In this document: one piece after another, positions 546 through 5,856 of the stretch
Layout: the number at the start of each line of letters is the position of its first letter
How positions within the stretch are numbered: the first letter of the stretch is position 1
Assembly: GCA_016193065.1 (NCBI GenBank)
Contig: JACPSX010000137.1
Location: forward strand, 1 to 5,856
Direction: 5' to 3'
Source of the DNA: Candidatus Tectimicrobiota bacterium
GTDB taxonomy: Bacteria; JACPSX01
DNA length: 5,856 nt
The notes under the pieces: model-generated
What the model saw: the letters and a program-made list of their open reading frames with translations, nothing else
Told to the model about the DNA's origin: nothing
The model's database searches: none
Position numbers and translations under genes: made by a program

Positions 546-1522
546 GTCCGGAATCTTCTCCCACTCTCGATCTCACCGTCGTCATTCCTGTTTTCAATGA
601 AGCCCCGAACTTGCGCCCCCTGTGCGAAAACCTCACGAGCGCTTTATCTCCCCTCGGGCGCACTTTCGAGATCCTCCTGATCGACGACGGCAGCAGCGAC
701 GAGAGCTTGCAGATTTACCCGGAGCTCTGCCGGAAATATGAGCAGGTCAAGGTCATCCGCCTGCGCCGCAACTTCGGCCAGACCGCGGCCTTCTCGGCCG
801 GCTTCGACTACGCCCGGGGCCGGATCATCGTCGCCATGGACGGAGACCTCCAGAACGACGCCGCGGACATCCCGGCGCTCCTGAAGAAAATCGAGGAAGG
901 GTACGATCTGGTGAGCGGCTGGCGGGTGAACCGGCGGGACAAGAAGGTGACCCGCATCCTCCCATCCCGCATTGCGAACTGGCTTATCAGCCGCCTGACC
1001 GGAGTCCCCCTGCATGATTACGGTTGCTCACTGAAGGCCTACCGGGCCGAGGTTGCCAAGAACCTGGCTCTCTACGGCGAGCTGCACCGCTTCATCCCCG
1101 TCCTGGCCAGCATGTACGGCGCCACGATTGCCGAGATCCCGGTGCAACACCACCCGCGCCGGCTGGGGAAGAGCAAGTACACGCTCTCGCGGGTCTTCCG
1201 GGTCGTGATCGACCTGGGAACGATCCTGTTCCTGAAATGGTTCCTGGACCGGCCCCAGTACGTGTTCGGGCGCTGGGGCTTGATCCTGTTCAGCGCGGGG
1301 CTGGTCATCGACGGCTACCTGGCCGCTCTGAAGATCTTCTGGGGAGAGGACATCGGAACCCGGCCCCTGCTCATCCTGGGAGTCTTGCTGATCCTGGCCG
1401 GCATGCAGATCTTCTTCACGGGAATCCTGGCTGAAATTCAGATCCGCACGTATTACGAATCACAGAAAAAACCCCGCTACCACGTGCGCGAGGTCCTCAG
1501 CTTCAACGAGACCATCCGTTGA
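542..1522 (+). CDS. GT2 polyprenyl-phosphate glycosyltransferase (DPM1/ArnC/GtrB type)
   Basis: This 326-residue protein has a cytoplasmic GT-A domain (~10-215) and two C-terminal membrane helices (~244-263 and ~275-297). Visible GT2 motifs are VVIPVFNE (13-20), the nucleotide-binding IDDGSSDES (47-55), RNFGQTAAFSAGF (76-88), the DxD-containing MDGDLQND (99-106), SGWRVNRRD (125-133), DYGCSLKAYR (159-168), ELHRFIP (180-186) and the basic HHPRRLGKSKY (203-213). Together these are typical of enzymes that transfer a sugar from a nucleotide sugar to polyprenyl phosphate (undecaprenyl phosphate in bacteria), as in DPM synthase, ArnC and GtrB. All expected catalytic residues are present, and length fits the ~310-330 of two-helix members. 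Starting at ATG 542 gives ATGA overlap with the GT-C gene, and its TGA overlaps the next gene's ATG. Context suggests it makes the lipid-linked donor used by the upstream GT-C enzyme. The sugar (mannose, glucose, aminoarabinose or other) cannot be decided from motifs alone. Confidence 0.92.
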   Translation: MSPESSPTLDLTVVIPVFNEAPNLRPLCENLTSALSPLGRTFEILLIDDGSSDESLQIYPELCRKYEQVKVIRLRRNFGQTAAFSAGFDYARGRIIVAMDGDLQNDAADIPALLKKIEEGYDLVSGWRVNRRDKKVTRILPSRIANWLISRLTGVPLHDYGCSLKAYRAEVAKNLALYGELHRFIPVLASMYGATIAEIPVQHHPRRLGKSKYTLSRVFRVVIDLGTILFLKWFLDRPQYVFGRWGLILFSAGLVIDGYLAALKIFWGEDIGTRPLLILGVLLILAGMQIFFTGILAEIQIRTYYESQKKPRYHVREVLSFNETIR

Positions 1523-1524
1523 TG
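1519..1524 (+). promoter_or_regulatory. TGATG coupling site; start choice of flippase-like gene
   Basis: The GT2 stop TGA (1520-1522) shares one base with ATG at 1522-1524. A TTG at 1519 is also in frame and would add one residue. No convincing Shine-Dalgarno sequence precedes either codon (upstream bases read CGAGACCATCCGT), so termination-reinitiation by ribosomes finishing the GT2 gene is the likely mode. ATG 1522 is chosen over TTG 1519 as the stronger start codon. Confidence 0.55.
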
Positions 1525-2457
1525 AAAAGGCTGCACTGGCTCCGGGTGGCCGTGAGCATTGCAGTTCTTTGGGTGATCTTCACCAAGATCCCATTGCGGG
1601 CCGTGGGCGACGTTTTGGGGAAGGTCACCCCGCTGCCCCTGTTCTTTGCTTTCCTGTTCTACCTGTGCGGTCAGACGCTGAGCGCCTACAAGTGGCGGCT
1701 TCTGGCCGCCCCTCTGGGATTTCAGCGGCGCTTTCGGGACTACCTGAGCTACTACTTCATCGGCATGTATTTCAACCTGTTCCTGCCCACCAACGTGGGG
1801 GGCGACGTGGGGCGGGGCTACTATCTGGCCGCGGAGAACAAGCAGTGGACACTGGCCTACTACTCGATTCTGGCCGAGCGCGCGAGCGGTACACTGGCCC
1901 TGTTCCTGGTGGCTTCCCTGGGGATTCTCGTTTCCGGCGGGGCGTCGCTTCCGCTCTGGATCTCCTGGGGAACCGGGCTGGCCACTGTTGCCCTGTTCGG
2001 CTGTCTCCCTGCCGTCCCCGCCCTGCTCAAAGTCCTGCGTGCACGCGTCCGTATCCTGTCGCCCTACATCCGGGAGGAGATGACCCTGTACTGGAAGACC
2101 CCCGATCTCCTCGTCCGCGCCCTTCTCCTGTCAGCCCTCTTCCACCTGCTGCTGGTCCTGATTCATTTCCTGATCGGGCGCGCCATGGGCTTGCAGCTCC
2201 CCGTGTCCTCCTACCTCGTCACGGCCCCCCTGACGGGGCTGGCCGCGTTTCTTCCCGTGAGCTTCAACGGGATCGGTATTCGGGAAGCCGCCTACATCTT
2301 CTTCCTGGGAAGCTTCGGCGCCGGACCCGCCGTGGCGTTCAGCTTCGGGATCCTCTGGCTCGCCGTGGTGGTGGCCGCAAGCCTTCTGGGAGGAGGAGCC
2401 TTTCTGCTCAAAAGGAGAGAGAAATTTCCCACAACGGAGTCTCGTCCAGACGCTTGA
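1522..2457 (+). CDS. Flippase-like integral membrane protein (LPG_synthase_TM / UPF0104 / AglD family)
   Basis: This 311-residue, highly hydrophobic protein has roughly seven to nine membrane segments (about 7-20, 38-54, 74-88, 112-137, 145-170, 197-219, 229-245 and 262-297). It carries the family hallmarks: AYKWRLL (55-61), LPTNVGGDVGR (88-98), ILAERASG (116-123), and PVSFNGIGIREAA (245-257) near the C-terminus. Families with this fold include the lipid-flipping membrane half of MprF and many unassigned proteins encoded beside polyprenyl-phosphate glycosyltransferases. There is no C-terminal aminoacyl-transferase domain, so it is not a full MprF. The TGATG junction with the GT2 gene suggests shared expression. 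Flipping of the lipid-linked sugar made by that GT2 is an inference; an accessory role in glycolipid synthesis is also possible. The last 16 codons overlap antiparallel with the end of the HyuB-gamma gene, and the encoded tail (KRREKFPTTESRPDA) is polar and probably cytoplasmic. Confidence 0.85.
   Translation: MKRLHWLRVAVSIAVLWVIFTKIPLRAVGDVLGKVTPLPLFFAFLFYLCGQTLSAYKWRLLAAPLGFQRRFRDYLSYYFIGMYFNLFLPTNVGGDVGRGYYLAAENKQWTLAYYSILAERASGTLALFLVASLGILVSGGASLPLWISWGTGLATVALFGCLPAVPALLKVLRARVRILSPYIREEMTLYWKTPDLLVRALLLSALFHLLLVLIHFLIGRAMGLQLPVSSYLVTAPLTGLAAFLPVSFNGIGIREAAYIFFLGSFGAGPAVAFSFGILWLAVVVAASLLGGGAFLLKRREKFPTTESRPDA
2408..2457. other. 50-base antiparallel coding overlap between convergent operons
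   Basis: The flippase-like gene stops with TGA at 2455-2457 (+ strand), and the HyuB-gamma gene stops with TGA reading 2410-2408 (- strand), so both genes use the same 50 bases for their last ~16 codons. I see no strong GC hairpin followed by a T-run in or next to the overlap on either strand. Transcripts from both sides must therefore run into each other or terminate inside the opposite gene. The mRNA 3' ends would be complementary over at least this stretch. Confidence 0.9.
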
Positions 2458-4570
2458 CCTCCAGACTCAAAAGAGAGCCGCAGCCCGGGCACAGGTGCTG
2501 AACCGCTTCCAGGTCCTGGTGGAGCCGGATCAAGGGGCCAAGCTCCTGCGGAGAAATTCGGCGGGCCACCGCTCTCTCCTTCCAGTTCTTGTCCGGCCCG
2601 CCCAACGATACGCCGCAGCGGCAGGCCACTTCGCTCTTGCCGTCCCGGCGCACCAGACTCAGGCCCTCTCCCAGAGCGGAAATCACTGGTGCGGACGCGC
2701 CCGCCTGGTCTCCCGGATCCGGCTTCTTTCCCAAGCGCTCCTCCACTATGGCCCGGCGCAATGCCACCGTCTCTTCCTCCAAGACCCGGTATGATCCCTG
2801 CTCCAGGACCACGCCGTAAATCTGCCGGGCTACCTGCGCTGAAATCTTCCCCTCCGCCACGTCCATCGCCACCTGAGCGGGATTTCGTCCCAGGGGATCC
2901 CCGACTCCGCCCCCTCCTTGCCAGGTAACCTCAAATACATCACCGGGGCGGAGAAGCACGGAGCCGGGCTTGGGTCCCAGTGTCTCCCGCTCCCCCTCCA
3001 CATCGTGCACTCCGGTGGGCAGAATCCCCGCCCGGAAGCGTTCCAGGAGATTGGAGGAAGTGAGCAGGCTTTGGACGACGCAGGAGCCGGGATAGCCCCC
3101 GAAAAGACCCGCGGAGTTCGGCACCTCGACGCCGTGGGTCATGATCAGGGCGTGCAGATCAGGAACCCCATGAACCGTGAGGGCAATGCCGGCGCTGCGT
3201 CCCCCCTGATGTTTTCCGGGTCCACCCGAATCCCGGGTAAAGCTGCGCCTCAAGTAGAGGATCGGGGCAAAATTCTCGTTGGTCTCCACATTGGCGATGT
3301 TGGGCAAGGGACAGGAAAAAGATCCCCCGACGTCGAGCCCGTCTTGATCCAGGTAGGCTCCAAAGCCGCCGGCCAGGGGATCCAGCATGTGGTGGCCGAA
3401 GGGCTCTCCATACTGGTTCTTGCCGCCGAAGTTGAGCGTCGCCATGCAGCCGTCGGAGACGGCGATGGCCTCTTGCCGATAAGCGGGATGGCAGGAGACC
3501 AGCCGCGAGCACGCGGAGATGGCCACGTTCTTCACGCACCAGACCGCTTCCACGGTGGCTGCTCCCACCGGGGCGGGGAACTCCGCGTTGCAGATGCGCC
3601 CCTTGGGACACACCACTTCCAGGGGGCGCAGCACTCCTTCATTCCATAGGATGTCATAAGCCAGGATGGGGAAAACCCCGGAGGCAATTCCGCTGATCAG
3701 GCCGGCTTCCGTGCAGTTGATGAACCCGGGGGCCTGGGGGGAGCTGCCGCTGAAGTCGAAAATCAGCCTGTCCCCTTTCTTGATCATCTGGAGAGCGATG
3801 GTGTAGAGGCAGTTTTCGTGGCCGTCGTGCTCCAGGTAATCCCGGGCCCGGTAGACACCGTCGGGTAGCTCCCGCAAGCGCCGGCGCAGGCGCTCTTCCG
3901 ATTCATCCAGGAGCTTCCCCATGACCCGCTGGACGACCTCGATCGTGTAGCGGTCAAACAGCGCCACGAGACGCTCGGCTGCTACGTGGTTTGCGGCAAT
4001 CATGGCCTTCAGATCGAGACCCAGCATGGCGGGAAGCCGCGAGGCGCCTAGAATCAAATCCCAGATATCCTGGCGCACCTCGCCGTCTTCCACGATCTTT
4101 ACAGCGGGCACCCGCAACCCTTCCTGATAGACTTCCTTGGCCTTCGGGCACCAACTCGCAAAGTCCATGCCGCCCACGTCCACCTCGTGGGCCCCGGCCC
4201 CCGCCCAGGCCACGAGCTGCCCCCGGTAGAACACCGGCCCGACCACGGCCACGTCGTTTTGGTGGATCGCGCCGCGGTAGGGATCGTTGACAAGGAACAT
4301 GTCGCCGGGCTTCACCCCAGGGTTTTGAGCCCGGCTGCTCAGGAGGTTCTTGATCATCAGCGACATGGCCCCGGCCTGGGAGATCACCTGGCGGCCCATG
4401 GTGGCCACGGTGCCGTCGGCCAGGTAGAGGCCGTTATTGTAGTCGGTGGCCTCCGTGACGACCGGTGACCCGGAAACGGCGCGCAAGGCGATGCGCTGTT
4501 CCTCGGTAATGGCCAGGAGCTTATTGCGCAGGACTTCGTAGATGATGGGATCGATGTTTTCGTCAATCAC
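2408..4570 (-). CDS. HyuB/acetone carboxylase alpha-type subunit fused to a gamma-like zinc domain
   Basis: This 720-residue protein starts at GTG (4570). Residues ~5-610 form the hydantoinase B/oxoprolinase domain, shared by N-methylhydantoinase B, 5-oxoprolinase, and acetone and acetophenone carboxylases. Visible motifs are DPIIYEVLRNKL (7-18), VNDPYRGAIHQND (94-106) and AGAHEVDVGG (125-134), which contain H103, D106, H128 and D131 as likely metal ligands. Further on are FDFSGSSPQAPGFIN (271-285), DSGGPGKHQGGRSAG (447-461) and WQGGGGVGDPLGRNP (550-564). HyuB proteins usually end soon after the last motif, at ~520-600 residues. This one continues through a Gly/Ala/Pro linker (~614-628) into a gamma-like domain (629-720). 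It lies 3' of the HyuA gene with an 8-base overlap, so the two subunits probably form one complex that uses ATP to activate a substrate and/or bicarbonate. The gamma-like tail favours a carboxylase over a hydantoinase or oxoprolinase. The substrate is unknown. NIANVETNE (424-432) and GKHQGG (452-457) differ from the usual family wording (NxPvEvxE, GRFRGG), suggesting a divergent subfamily. Confidence 0.88.
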   Translation of the reverse strand: MIDENIDPIIYEVLRNKLLAITEEQRIALRAVSGSPVVTEATDYNNGLYLADGTVATMGRQVISQAGAMSLMIKNLLSSRAQNPGVKPGDMFLVNDPYRGAIHQNDVAVVGPVFYRGQLVAWAGAGAHEVDVGGMDFASWCPKAKEVYQEGLRVPAVKIVEDGEVRQDIWDLILGASRLPAMLGLDLKAMIAANHVAAERLVALFDRYTIEVVQRVMGKLLDESEERLRRRLRELPDGVYRARDYLEHDGHENCLYTIALQMIKKGDRLIFDFSGSSPQAPGFINCTEAGLISGIASGVFPILAYDILWNEGVLRPLEVVCPKGRICNAEFPAPVGAATVEAVWCVKNVAISACSRLVSCHPAYRQEAIAVSDGCMATLNFGGKNQYGEPFGHHMLDPLAGGFGAYLDQDGLDVGGSFSCPLPNIANVETNENFAPILYLRRSFTRDSGGPGKHQGGRSAGIALTVHGVPDLHALIMTHGVEVPNSAGLFGGYPGSCVVQSLLTSSNLLERFRAGILPTGVHDVEGERETLGPKPGSVLLRPGDVFEVTWQGGGGVGDPLGRNPAQVAMDVAEGKISAQVARQIYGVVLEQGSYRVLEEETVALRRAIVEERLGKKPDPGDQAGASAPVISALGEGLSLVRRDGKSEVACRCGVSLGGPDKNWKERAVARRISPQELGPLIRLHQDLEAVQHLCPGCGSLLSLEVKRLDETPLWEISLSF
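2411..2686 (-). other. Acetone carboxylase gamma-like zinc domain fused to HyuB (residues 629-720)
   Basis: The segment reads ISALGEGLSLVRR, then CRCG (650-653), KNWKERAVAR (661-670), LCPGCGSLLSLEV (693-705) and a short tail ending WEISLSF. From memory, the separate acetone carboxylase gamma subunit has the same order: a short LPLGPxL strand, CxCG, NWK, then CPxCGxL plus an acidic residue. C650, C652, C694 and C697 are candidate zinc ligands. At ~92 residues this is shorter than the ~165-residue free subunit and seems to lack that subunit's N-terminal helical part and C-terminal extension. No separate gamma gene follows, because the next gene downstream is on the opposite strand. The alternative is a generic zinc ribbon, but the NWK motif between the cysteine pairs argues against that. 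Confidence 0.75.
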
Positions 4571-4584
4571 GGCCAGCTTCCCTT
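4563..4584 (-). promoter_or_regulatory. RBS and GTGATTGA overlap linking the HyuA and HyuB genes
   Basis: Read on the - strand, purine-rich AAGGGAAG (4584-4577) lies 6 bases before GTG at 4570-4568. The HyuA stop TGA is at 4565-4563, giving an 8-base overlap (GTGATTGA). The encoded start (M-IDENIDPIIYEVLRNKL) puts the conserved DPI..EV.RN motif right at the N-terminus, as is normal for HyuB, so a GTG start here is well supported and no nearby ATG fits better. The overlap suggests translational coupling and balanced subunit synthesis. Confidence 0.65.
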
Positions 4585-5856
4585 TCCAGGACGACGTTGA
4601 GCAGTGAATCCAGGCGGGCTTTCTGCTTTACGCCCACGACCACCGTCGTGCCAAAATATTCGATGACGGCCGGCCCCGCGACCTCGTTGCCGGCTTTCAG
4701 ATCGGGGCCCGAGTACACGGGGGTCTCCAGAAAATCCCCGGCTTCCAAAAAATAAATGGGCCTTTTCCCCCGCCGGGCGCCGGAGGGATCCGGACCTTGC
4801 AGAGGGAACTCTCTCAAGCTCGGTTTGGGGAGATTGCCCACCGCTTCGACCCGCAGCGTGGTGATTTCAAGCCCTGCTTCCCGATACGCGGAACCACGCC
4901 CGTAGCGGCGCTGGTAGATTTCTTCAAAGCGCCGGCACAGGAGGTCCACCTGCTCCTCTGTGAGAGGCCCCGGCGGAGCCGGGACCACGACCTCGTGGGT
5001 CTGCCGCCGGTAGCGCATGTGGGCCGTGCGCAAGAAGGCCCACCTCTCCGGCCGGACGCCGCTGCGCTCCAGGGCCTTGGCCCCTTGCTTCTCCAGATCG
5101 GAGAAGATTTTCTCCAGGCGGGTGGCCTCCAGATGCTCCGAGGCCCGGGCAAAGAAGGGCGGAGTGCGCAGGATCTCGGAGCGCTCGAAGACATAGCGCA
5201 GGTCCGCGGCCGCGCAACCATAGGCCGAATAGGCAGTGGCCGCCGGGGGAATTACGGTGGAGCGCACCTCCAGCTCGGAAGCGTAGGTGGTGCAGTGGGC
5301 CGGACCTGCGCCGCCGAAGGCGAGCACGGTAAACTCTCTGGGGTCACACCCTTTTTCCACTAGAACCTGGCGGAGAAGGTCGGCCATTTGCTGGCCCACG
5401 ATCGTGCGGATCCCGGCCGCCGCCCGGGAGACGGGAATTCCCAGAGGATCGGCGACTTTTTCCCGGATCACCTTTTCGGCGGCCGCCGCGTCCAGGCGCA
5501 AGCGCCCGCCCAGGAAGTTCTGCGGGTTCAGGATTCCCAGCACCACATCCGCGTCGGTCACGGTGGGCTCCTGCCCCCCGCGCCCGTAGCAGGCCGGCCC
5601 CGGATCGGCGCCGGCACTGTTCGGGCCCACCTTGAGAACCCCGTCCACCACGGTGGCCAGGCTTCCTCCTCCGGCTCCGATGGAGCGCAGATCGATCTGG
5701 GGAATCAGGAGGTGAAATTTGCCAGCCACGGTTTCCAGCGTCTTCACCGCTTCGCCATCGCAGATCAGCCCCACGTCAAAGCTCGTCCCCCCCATATCGG
5801 TAGTGACCAGGTTGGAGAGTCCCAGGGCTTCTCCCAGGTAGAGGGCGGCTCCCACC
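4563..5856 (-). CDS. HyuA/acetone carboxylase beta-type ATP-binding subunit, C-terminal ~430 residues
   Basis: The gene enters from the right edge with 430 residues in view; HyuA proteins are usually ~680-720, so ~250-280 N-terminal residues are missing. The first codon in view is an internal Val, not a start. Visible motifs (numbered from the first in-frame codon, base 5855) are the ASKHA-type phosphate-binding DMGGTSFDVGLI (20-31), IGAGGGSLA (59-67), GPACYGRGGQEPTVTDADVVLG (86-107), LAFGGAGPAH (178-187), AYSAYGCAAAD (208-218), MRYRRQTHEVVVP (280-292), ETPVYSGPDL (377-386) and GPAVIEYFGTTVVV (394-407). These match the hydantoinase/oxoprolinase family (HyuA, 5-oxoprolinase N-half, acetone carboxylase beta, acetophenone carboxylase), in which ATP hydrolysis activates the substrate or bicarbonate. 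MRYRRQ carries Arg where Gly is common (RYxGQ), a mild divergence. It is followed directly by the HyuB-gamma gene, its likely partner. The substrate cannot be called, but the gamma-like tail on the partner points to carboxylation. Confidence 0.9.
   Translation of the reverse strand, partial: VGAALYLGEALGLSNLVTTDMGGTSFDVGLICDGEAVKTLETVAGKFHLLIPQIDLRSIGAGGGSLATVVDGVLKVGPNSAGADPGPACYGRGGQEPTVTDADVVLGILNPQNFLGGRLRLDAAAAEKVIREKVADPLGIPVSRAAAGIRTIVGQQMADLLRQVLVEKGCDPREFTVLAFGGAGPAHCTTYASELEVRSTVIPPAATAYSAYGCAAADLRYVFERSEILRTPPFFARASEHLEATRLEKIFSDLEKQGAKALERSGVRPERWAFLRTAHMRYRRQTHEVVVPAPPGPLTEEQVDLLCRRFEEIYQRRYGRGSAYREAGLEITTLRVEAVGNLPKPSLREFPLQGPDPSGARRGKRPIYFLEAGDFLETPVYSGPDLKAGNEVAGPAVIEYFGTTVVVGVKQKARLDSLLNVVLEREAGRD

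Follow-up and report, generated by a model that had tools for sequence, protein, structure and literature searches.

We sought to characterize a fusion gene in a 5,856-nucleotide stretch of DNA, hereafter the window, from a Candidatus Tectimicrobiota bacterium (assembly GCA_016193065.1, contig JACPSX010000137.1). The window takes up all of contig C54, one of 294 in a 2.9-Mb draft genome with 86% completeness. It was found that the minus-strand gene at 2408..4570 joins a HyuB-type core to a C-terminal zinc domain, and this tail was confirmed to be genuinely related to the gamma subunit of acetone carboxylase (AC) and acetophenone carboxylase (APC). The joined architecture, B-gamma, is widespread and not special to the source genome. 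From sequence comparison, the gamma-bearing proteins form a separate, apparently uncharacterised branch with a hydantoinase-like core. Together with the HyuA-type subunit (A) encoded directly upstream, B-gamma would form an adenosine triphosphate (ATP)-dependent superfamily enzyme of two polypeptides, and we somewhat favor a carboxylase of a ketone-like compound.

A gamma domain joined to a HyuB core

The fusion gene, also covered by a 41-row alignment, has a GTG start and a single open frame of 720 codons, without a stop or frame break. Its HyuB (PF02538-type) core spans residues 1-612 (2735..4570, minus strand) and is defined by Pfam and fold matches, the Pfam HydB model PF02538 covering residues 7-559 over profile positions 1-519 of 519 (E 6e-133). 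A linker of residues 613-628 (2687..2734, minus), containing GKKPDPGDQAGASAP, leads into the 92-residue gamma domain of residues 629-720 (2411..2686, minus), which was assigned from PF08882, a tail profile, and its fold. An earlier sequence-only reading had ended the core near residue ~610 and placed CRCG at 650-653, NWK at 662-664, and CPGCG at 694-698; the core boundary is in line with this, the motif positions are exact, and only the strand had been left out. The AlphaFold model of all 720 residues was confident (mean predicted local distance difference test, pLDDT, 91.3; predicted template modelling score 0.93) except for the linker around 611-630, the lowest-confidence internal stretch (pLDDT about 70), whose length varies among relatives. 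By eye, no clear ribosome-binding site for a separate gamma start was seen at the in-frame GTG codons of residues 629 and 640. The earlier reading had also raised a possible frameshift or stop between the two domains. The guanine-plus-cytosine content of the three codon positions was alike across the join (core 0.68/0.43/0.79; tail 0.66/0.47/0.76), and the same one-frame join was found in most of the nearest loci, so a sequencing or assembly frameshift is excluded.

The same reading had assigned the tail to the gamma family and proposed a search with PF08882 (acetone carboxylase gamma), for which the curated cut-off is 21 bits. It was noted that the match to residues 632-705 fell below this cut-off in the whole-protein scan (17.6 bits; E 0.0045) and rose above it when the tail was scanned alone (23.1 bits; E 9e-5), while a six-frame search gave 22.4 bits with its neighbours. 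PF08882 also matched 27 of 35 fused tails scanned separately. A phmmer search of the single window tail against the PDB returned nothing significant, and a family profile was therefore needed. When a profile built from the 35 fused tails was searched against 177,635 PDB sequences, its three best matches were the AC gamma chains 5m45_C (E 9.1e-12) and 5svb_C (2.7e-11) and the APC gamma chain 5l9w_C (1.6e-10), followed in fourth place by a zinc finger (E 0.0044). A profile of the fused tails also recovered the genuine acetone carboxylase gamma genes of four surveyed genomes (E 6e-15 to 2e-4).

Because structure matches of the whole model below rank 6 were taken up by the N-terminal domain and uninformative on gamma, the gamma domain was folded and searched alone. 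The resulting model (pLDDT 87.5) matched AC gamma 5svb_F with Z 12.1 (100 residues; root-mean-square deviation 2.8) and APC gamma with Z 9.5, the next entry reaching only 2.9. The tail aligns with residues 52-134 of the 168 of AC gamma and is without the N-terminal extension, which bears out the short module that had been suggested. Its four zinc cysteines follow the order CxC ... CPxC in the alignment to 5m45_C, with Cys650 and Cys652 (CRC; 2615..2623, minus) equivalent to AC gamma Cys74/Cys76 and Cys694 and Cys697 (CPGC; 2480..2491, minus) to Cys124/Cys127 (PMC5543143); by this correspondence, they would bind zinc. Weak resemblances of the gamma model (2411-2737) to the Mis18-yippee, cereblon CULT, and RIG-I C-terminal zinc domains were also recorded (Z 2.5-2.9). 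Cereblon binds cyclic imides, and the match is too weak for any inference.

Fold searches with the core matched APC beta (Z 37.1), the caprolactamase subunit CapB (34.8), and AC alpha (33.5). The predicted catalytic-metal ligands are Asp43 (4442..4444, minus), aligned with AC E89, APC D65, and CapB D41; His103 and Asp106 (4253..4264, minus), aligned with AC H150/D153, APC H123/D126, and CapB H99/D102; and His128 (4187..4189, minus), aligned with AC H175, APC H148, and CapB H124. The alignment reproduced exactly the ligand numbers published for AC, APC, and CapB (PMC5543143, PMC8453981, PMC5214803), which served as a check on it. Asp occupies position 43 in the window protein and throughout the 82 branch members, a residue shared with hydantoinases and APC, whereas Glu stands there in four of four AC sequences compared.

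The HyuA-type ATP-binding subunit is represented by its C-terminal 430 residues (4563..5855, minus; PF01968, E 7.5e-66; PF19278, E 1.2e-29), the gene running off the contig end with its N-terminal part missing. Its closest PDB entries are APC alpha, CapA, and AC beta. The stop of A and the start of the fusion gene overlap by 8 bases at 4563-4570 (GTGATTGA), as expected for co-translated subunits. The phosphate-2 motif DMGGTSFD of the ATP site (5775..5798, minus) was identified from sequence and is conserved in the branch, and the adenosine motif GADPGP (5595..5612, minus) follows the GxxPGP form defined in PMC5214803. We considered GxxPGP as a discriminator of AC and dropped it, two of four AC-group sequences having kept it. 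The order A then B-gamma equals acxA-acxB-acxC (published order: PMC5214803) with the last two genes joined, as had been read from the sequence, and the contig end leaves room for a further upstream gene.

Placement and spread of the gamma-bearing branch

We examined a tree of 99 B cores, in which long branches make the placement good but not final evidence. Fused and split B proteins form one branch of their own (Shimodaira-Hasegawa-like approximate likelihood ratio support 92). The AC rows group together (100), and AC and APC group together (99), apart from the gamma-bearing branch. Grouping the branch with AC, or with APC, was rejected by the approximately unbiased (AU) test (p = 0.014 each), and the A subunits of the gamma-bearing branch likewise stay together. 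Within a 23-row clade in which every member is fused, the window protein pairs with a Tectomicrobia protein as its sister (52% identity; support 97). The fused state needs six changes on the tree, at least five of them forced, and fusion and/or fission therefore occurred several times. Judged by sequence, the window protein appears to be no acetone carboxylase, and it would fall outside the hydantoinases as published, because those are without gamma (PMC5214803). The earlier equation with acetone carboxylase is thus given up, on account of the separate branch, the AU result, and Asp43 in place of Glu.

When 84,980 species genomes were scanned with an alignment of three sequences, 78 loci were obtained, and a survey of HyuB-gamma fusions, also proposed earlier, showed B and gamma in one frame in 67 of these nearest loci. 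All four zinc cysteines are kept in 66 of the 67 fused relatives. In the other 11 loci, a free gamma open reading frame adjoins the A/B pair, once upstream of A and once apparently frameshifted; as every nearest unfused relative has a free gamma next to A/B, gamma belongs to the system. Hosts include Alphaproteobacteria, Pusillimonas, many actinomycetes, Dehalococcoidia, Tectomicrobia, and Deltaproteobacteria, and haloarchaeal plasmids carry both fused and split forms. Cultured relatives in which the fused gene is accompanied by an intact A include Labrys sp. KNU-23, Pusillimonas noertemannii DSM 10065, and Rhodococcus opacus (pCP105). RefSeq names the fused proteins 'hydantoinase B/oxoprolinase family protein' and the free ones 'acetone carboxylase subunit gamma'. 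The source genome itself has two further such loci: on C262 (L143) another fused gene is truncated by the end of the contig, and C41 carries a split pair whose members overlap slightly. Compared with the core, gamma changes more rapidly, though under purifying selection, with a ratio of nonsynonymous to synonymous substitution rates of 0.03-0.29 in eleven close pairs. In the open-access papers searched, we found none that describes the fusion or characterises a member of the branch, and mention elsewhere is possible.

Several variant arrangements were encountered among these loci. A fused B-gamma of Sphingomonas sp. Root710 (L033, 5800-8112) retains one zinc cysteine of the four (Ser, Gly, Cys, Ser) together with the rest of the domain, the other three having been lost. 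Two metagenome-assembled genomes (MAGs; L051 and L052, Centralia, clean291) have one A followed by two to three tandem fused B-gamma genes, with a further A on the opposite strand. A Ca. Tectomicrobia locus (L112, G047 contig C31) has A, B, B, and gamma on one strand, thus two B genes and one free gamma. The frameshifted free gamma lies in a Gammaproteobacteria MAG (L068, 7785-9455), where the apparent frameshift is in the second half and the frame runs, by eye, into Rieske-type oxygenase-like sequence; this is probably a MAG error or a pseudogene.

Compared with known systems, the fusion protein shares with acetone carboxylase (AcxABC; PDB 5SVB/5SVC/5M45) the A-B-gamma order, the CxC...CPxC zinc site, the NWK motif, the His/Asp/His part of the B metal site, and the folds of B and gamma. 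It differs in that gamma is joined and about 75 residues shorter, whereas AC gamma is separate and has about 168 residues; the fourth metal ligand is Asp rather than Glu (E89), the AC-type extensions are missing, and the tree branch is separate. Acetophenone carboxylase (ApcABCDE; PDB 5L9W) gives the best core fold match and has a like Asp/His/Asp/His site, a small gamma, and the GxxPGP motif in A. However, it has a separate gamma gene, two A-type subunits, an epsilon subunit, and the order A', gamma, A, B, and it is separated from the branch by the AU test. Hydantoinases and caprolactamase (CapAB, PDB 6YRA; N-methylhydantoinase, 7HK5/9H03) resemble the system in consisting of two polypeptides, A and B (one chain in 7HK5), and in their Asp-type metal site, and they have the nearest B core by tree, but they possess no gamma domain. 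The free-gamma relatives of the branch itself, from Natronosalvus halobius and Haladaptatus pallidirubidus plasmids, Ca. Tectomicrobia, and C41 of the source genome, have the same kind of B and gamma in the same order and differ in gamma being a separate adjoining gene.

Gene neighbourhoods and the competing reactions

Evidence on function was taken from the loci of relatives and not from the window. Among 106 immediate neighbours at 38 loci, the commonest were aldehyde dehydrogenase (12), short-chain dehydrogenase (8), LysR (7), and zinc alcohol dehydrogenase (6-7), so that aldehyde/alcohol dehydrogenases of three unrelated kinds are represented. In the nearest clade the order was LysR, A, B-gamma, short-chain dehydrogenase, and aldehyde dehydrogenase, with a ribose-type ATP-binding cassette transporter in several loci. 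Plasmid pCP105 of R. opacus carries a short-chain dehydrogenase, A, B-gamma, another short-chain dehydrogenase, and an acyl-coenzyme A (CoA) ligase, and 2,3-butanediol dehydrogenase was found at two haloarchaeal loci. A CoA ligase, CoA transferase, enoyl-CoA hydratase, thiolase, or acyl-CoA dehydrogenase lay within about 5 kb of six of eight plasmid gamma-bearing loci and of none of six gamma-less hydantoinase loci from the same search, which were instead accompanied by amino-acid transporters, racemases, an amidase, and proline catabolism genes. Simple counting gives 28/3003 = 0.009 as the probability of so extreme a split, for a contrast that is small and unblinded, with loci chosen by hand and several of the eight being related haloarchaea. 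The neighbour pattern suits a route in which an alcohol is oxidised to a ketone, the ketone is carboxylated at the expense of ATP, and CoA activation follows, as in acetone and acetophenone catabolism.

Other neighbours point in a different direction. An isochorismatase-family hydrolase stands beside B-gamma at a Tectomicrobia locus (L016) and a Dehalococcoidia MAG locus (L050), and UbiD-type genes occur at the latter and on contig C262 of the source genome. The L050 locus (297-7173) encodes A, B-gamma, a tetratricopeptide repeat protein, the isochorismatase-family hydrolase, and UbiD in one run, and C262 also encodes an NMT1-type transporter, a thiamine-diphosphate enzyme, a UbiD decarboxylase, and a formiminotransferase. 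The isochorismatase-type fold is that of N-carbamoylsarcosine amidohydrolase, which acts with N-methylhydantoinase in the creatinine pathway. The isochorismatase-family neighbours suggest cyclic amide hydrolysis at some loci, recalling this pathway. Given the isochorismatase-type and UbiD-type neighbours at some loci, the gamma-bearing branch may therefore hold more than one reaction.

Several of these observations speak against carboxylation of a ketone-like compound. The B core lies on the hydantoinase side of the tree, next to hydantoinases, caprolactamase, and N-methylhydantoinase; Asp43 is a metal ligand of the hydantoinase type; and the isochorismatase-family hydrolases adjoin some relatives. 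The best NCBIfam matches are CapB for B-gamma (252.7 bits) and CapA for the partial A (348.9 bits), though far below the cut-off of 1000 bits. Together these would agree with an ATP-dependent cyclic amide hydrolase of the hydantoinase, lactamase, or oxoprolinase type with a structural gamma, in which A would phosphorylate the amide carbonyl, the B metal would deliver water, and the ring would open, bicarbonate perhaps being only a cofactor as in caprolactamase. We regard this as a serious but rather unlikely alternative: gamma has so far been found only in ketone carboxylases (PMC5214803), the neighbours in the branch mostly concern carbonyl and CoA metabolism, unlike those of the gamma-less hydantoinases, which concern amino acids and amides, and APC likewise has Asp at position 43. 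The window itself adds no metabolic neighbours to the carboxylase case, having a contig end upstream and convergent genes without evident relation downstream, namely a lysylphosphatidylglycerol-synthase-type membrane protein (1519-2457, plus strand) and a family-2 glycosyltransferase (542-1522), and the open-access papers searched yielded no biochemical data for any branch member. The fusion gene and the lysylphosphatidylglycerol-synthase-type gene overlap by 50 bases at their 3' ends (2408-2457).

The gene order and the gamma homology might also be taken to indicate a genuine acetone carboxylase reduced from three polypeptides to two. This is highly improbable, since grouping with AC is rejected, Asp43 departs from the invariant Glu of the AC sequences compared, and the chain of 720 residues includes gamma where AC alpha has 776 without it. 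The surveyed AC genomes, moreover, have a separate gamma of 168-187 residues that scores 127-152 bits against PF08882, compared with 23 here. In view of the weak whole-protein Pfam score and of the generic zinc-ribbon models matched by some relatives, we also considered whether the tail might be a zinc ribbon of another kind, or the join an error of sequencing or assembly. The probability of either is negligible: the profile and fold searches point specifically to AC and APC gamma, which rules out an unrelated ribbon, and the same join recurs across many phyla with even codon statistics.

Proposed enzyme and its implications

The carboxylase of a ketone-like compound, made of two polypeptides, had also been predicted by the sequence-only reading, and this part is favored by the neighbourhoods of relatives even as the identification with acetone carboxylase is not supported. 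In the mechanism that we propose, B has taken up the gamma subunit as its C-terminal domain, and two polypeptides would form the enzyme. At the expense of ATP, the A subunit would phosphorylate bicarbonate and/or a carbonyl substrate in its enol form. Thus activated, the intermediates would then travel through an internal channel to the B-core metal at Asp43/His103/Asp106/His128 and join there, most likely with carboxylation of the ketone-like compound to a 3-oxo acid. Genes of CoA metabolism beside the plasmid loci would be expected if the product were a 3-oxo acid.

The zinc of gamma in AC and APC is regarded as structural and as remote from the active sites (PMC5543143, PMC5214803). In APC, the C-terminal arm of the B-type subunit embraces gamma (PMC5214803), so a C-terminal fusion is geometrically natural. 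The zinc domain of the fusion protein would likewise be structural and non-catalytic, tethered where free gamma docks, near the C-terminal arm of B, and stabilising the complex. The loss of cysteines in Root710, with the domain otherwise kept, would agree with a scaffold rather than a catalytic role. A single-chain B-gamma also offers a simpler two-polypeptide enzyme for asking what the unexplained gamma does.

The presence of gamma is a published criterion separating ketone carboxylases from hydantoinases (PMC5214803; applied in PMC4959651): the enzymes known to have it carboxylate ketones, and it was reported to be missing from any hydantoinase complex (PMC5214803). The combination of gamma with a hydantoinase-like core means either that such criteria fail or that many 'hydantoinase B/oxoprolinase' proteins are carboxylases. 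We tentatively propose that the gamma-bearing, mostly fused A/B-gamma systems could represent a fourth functional branch of the superfamily, found in bacteria and haloarchaea and carboxylating varied ketone-like compounds with a hydantoinase-type metal site. If this is true, biotin-independent ketone carboxylation would extend far beyond the few acetone and acetophenone carboxylases described to date.

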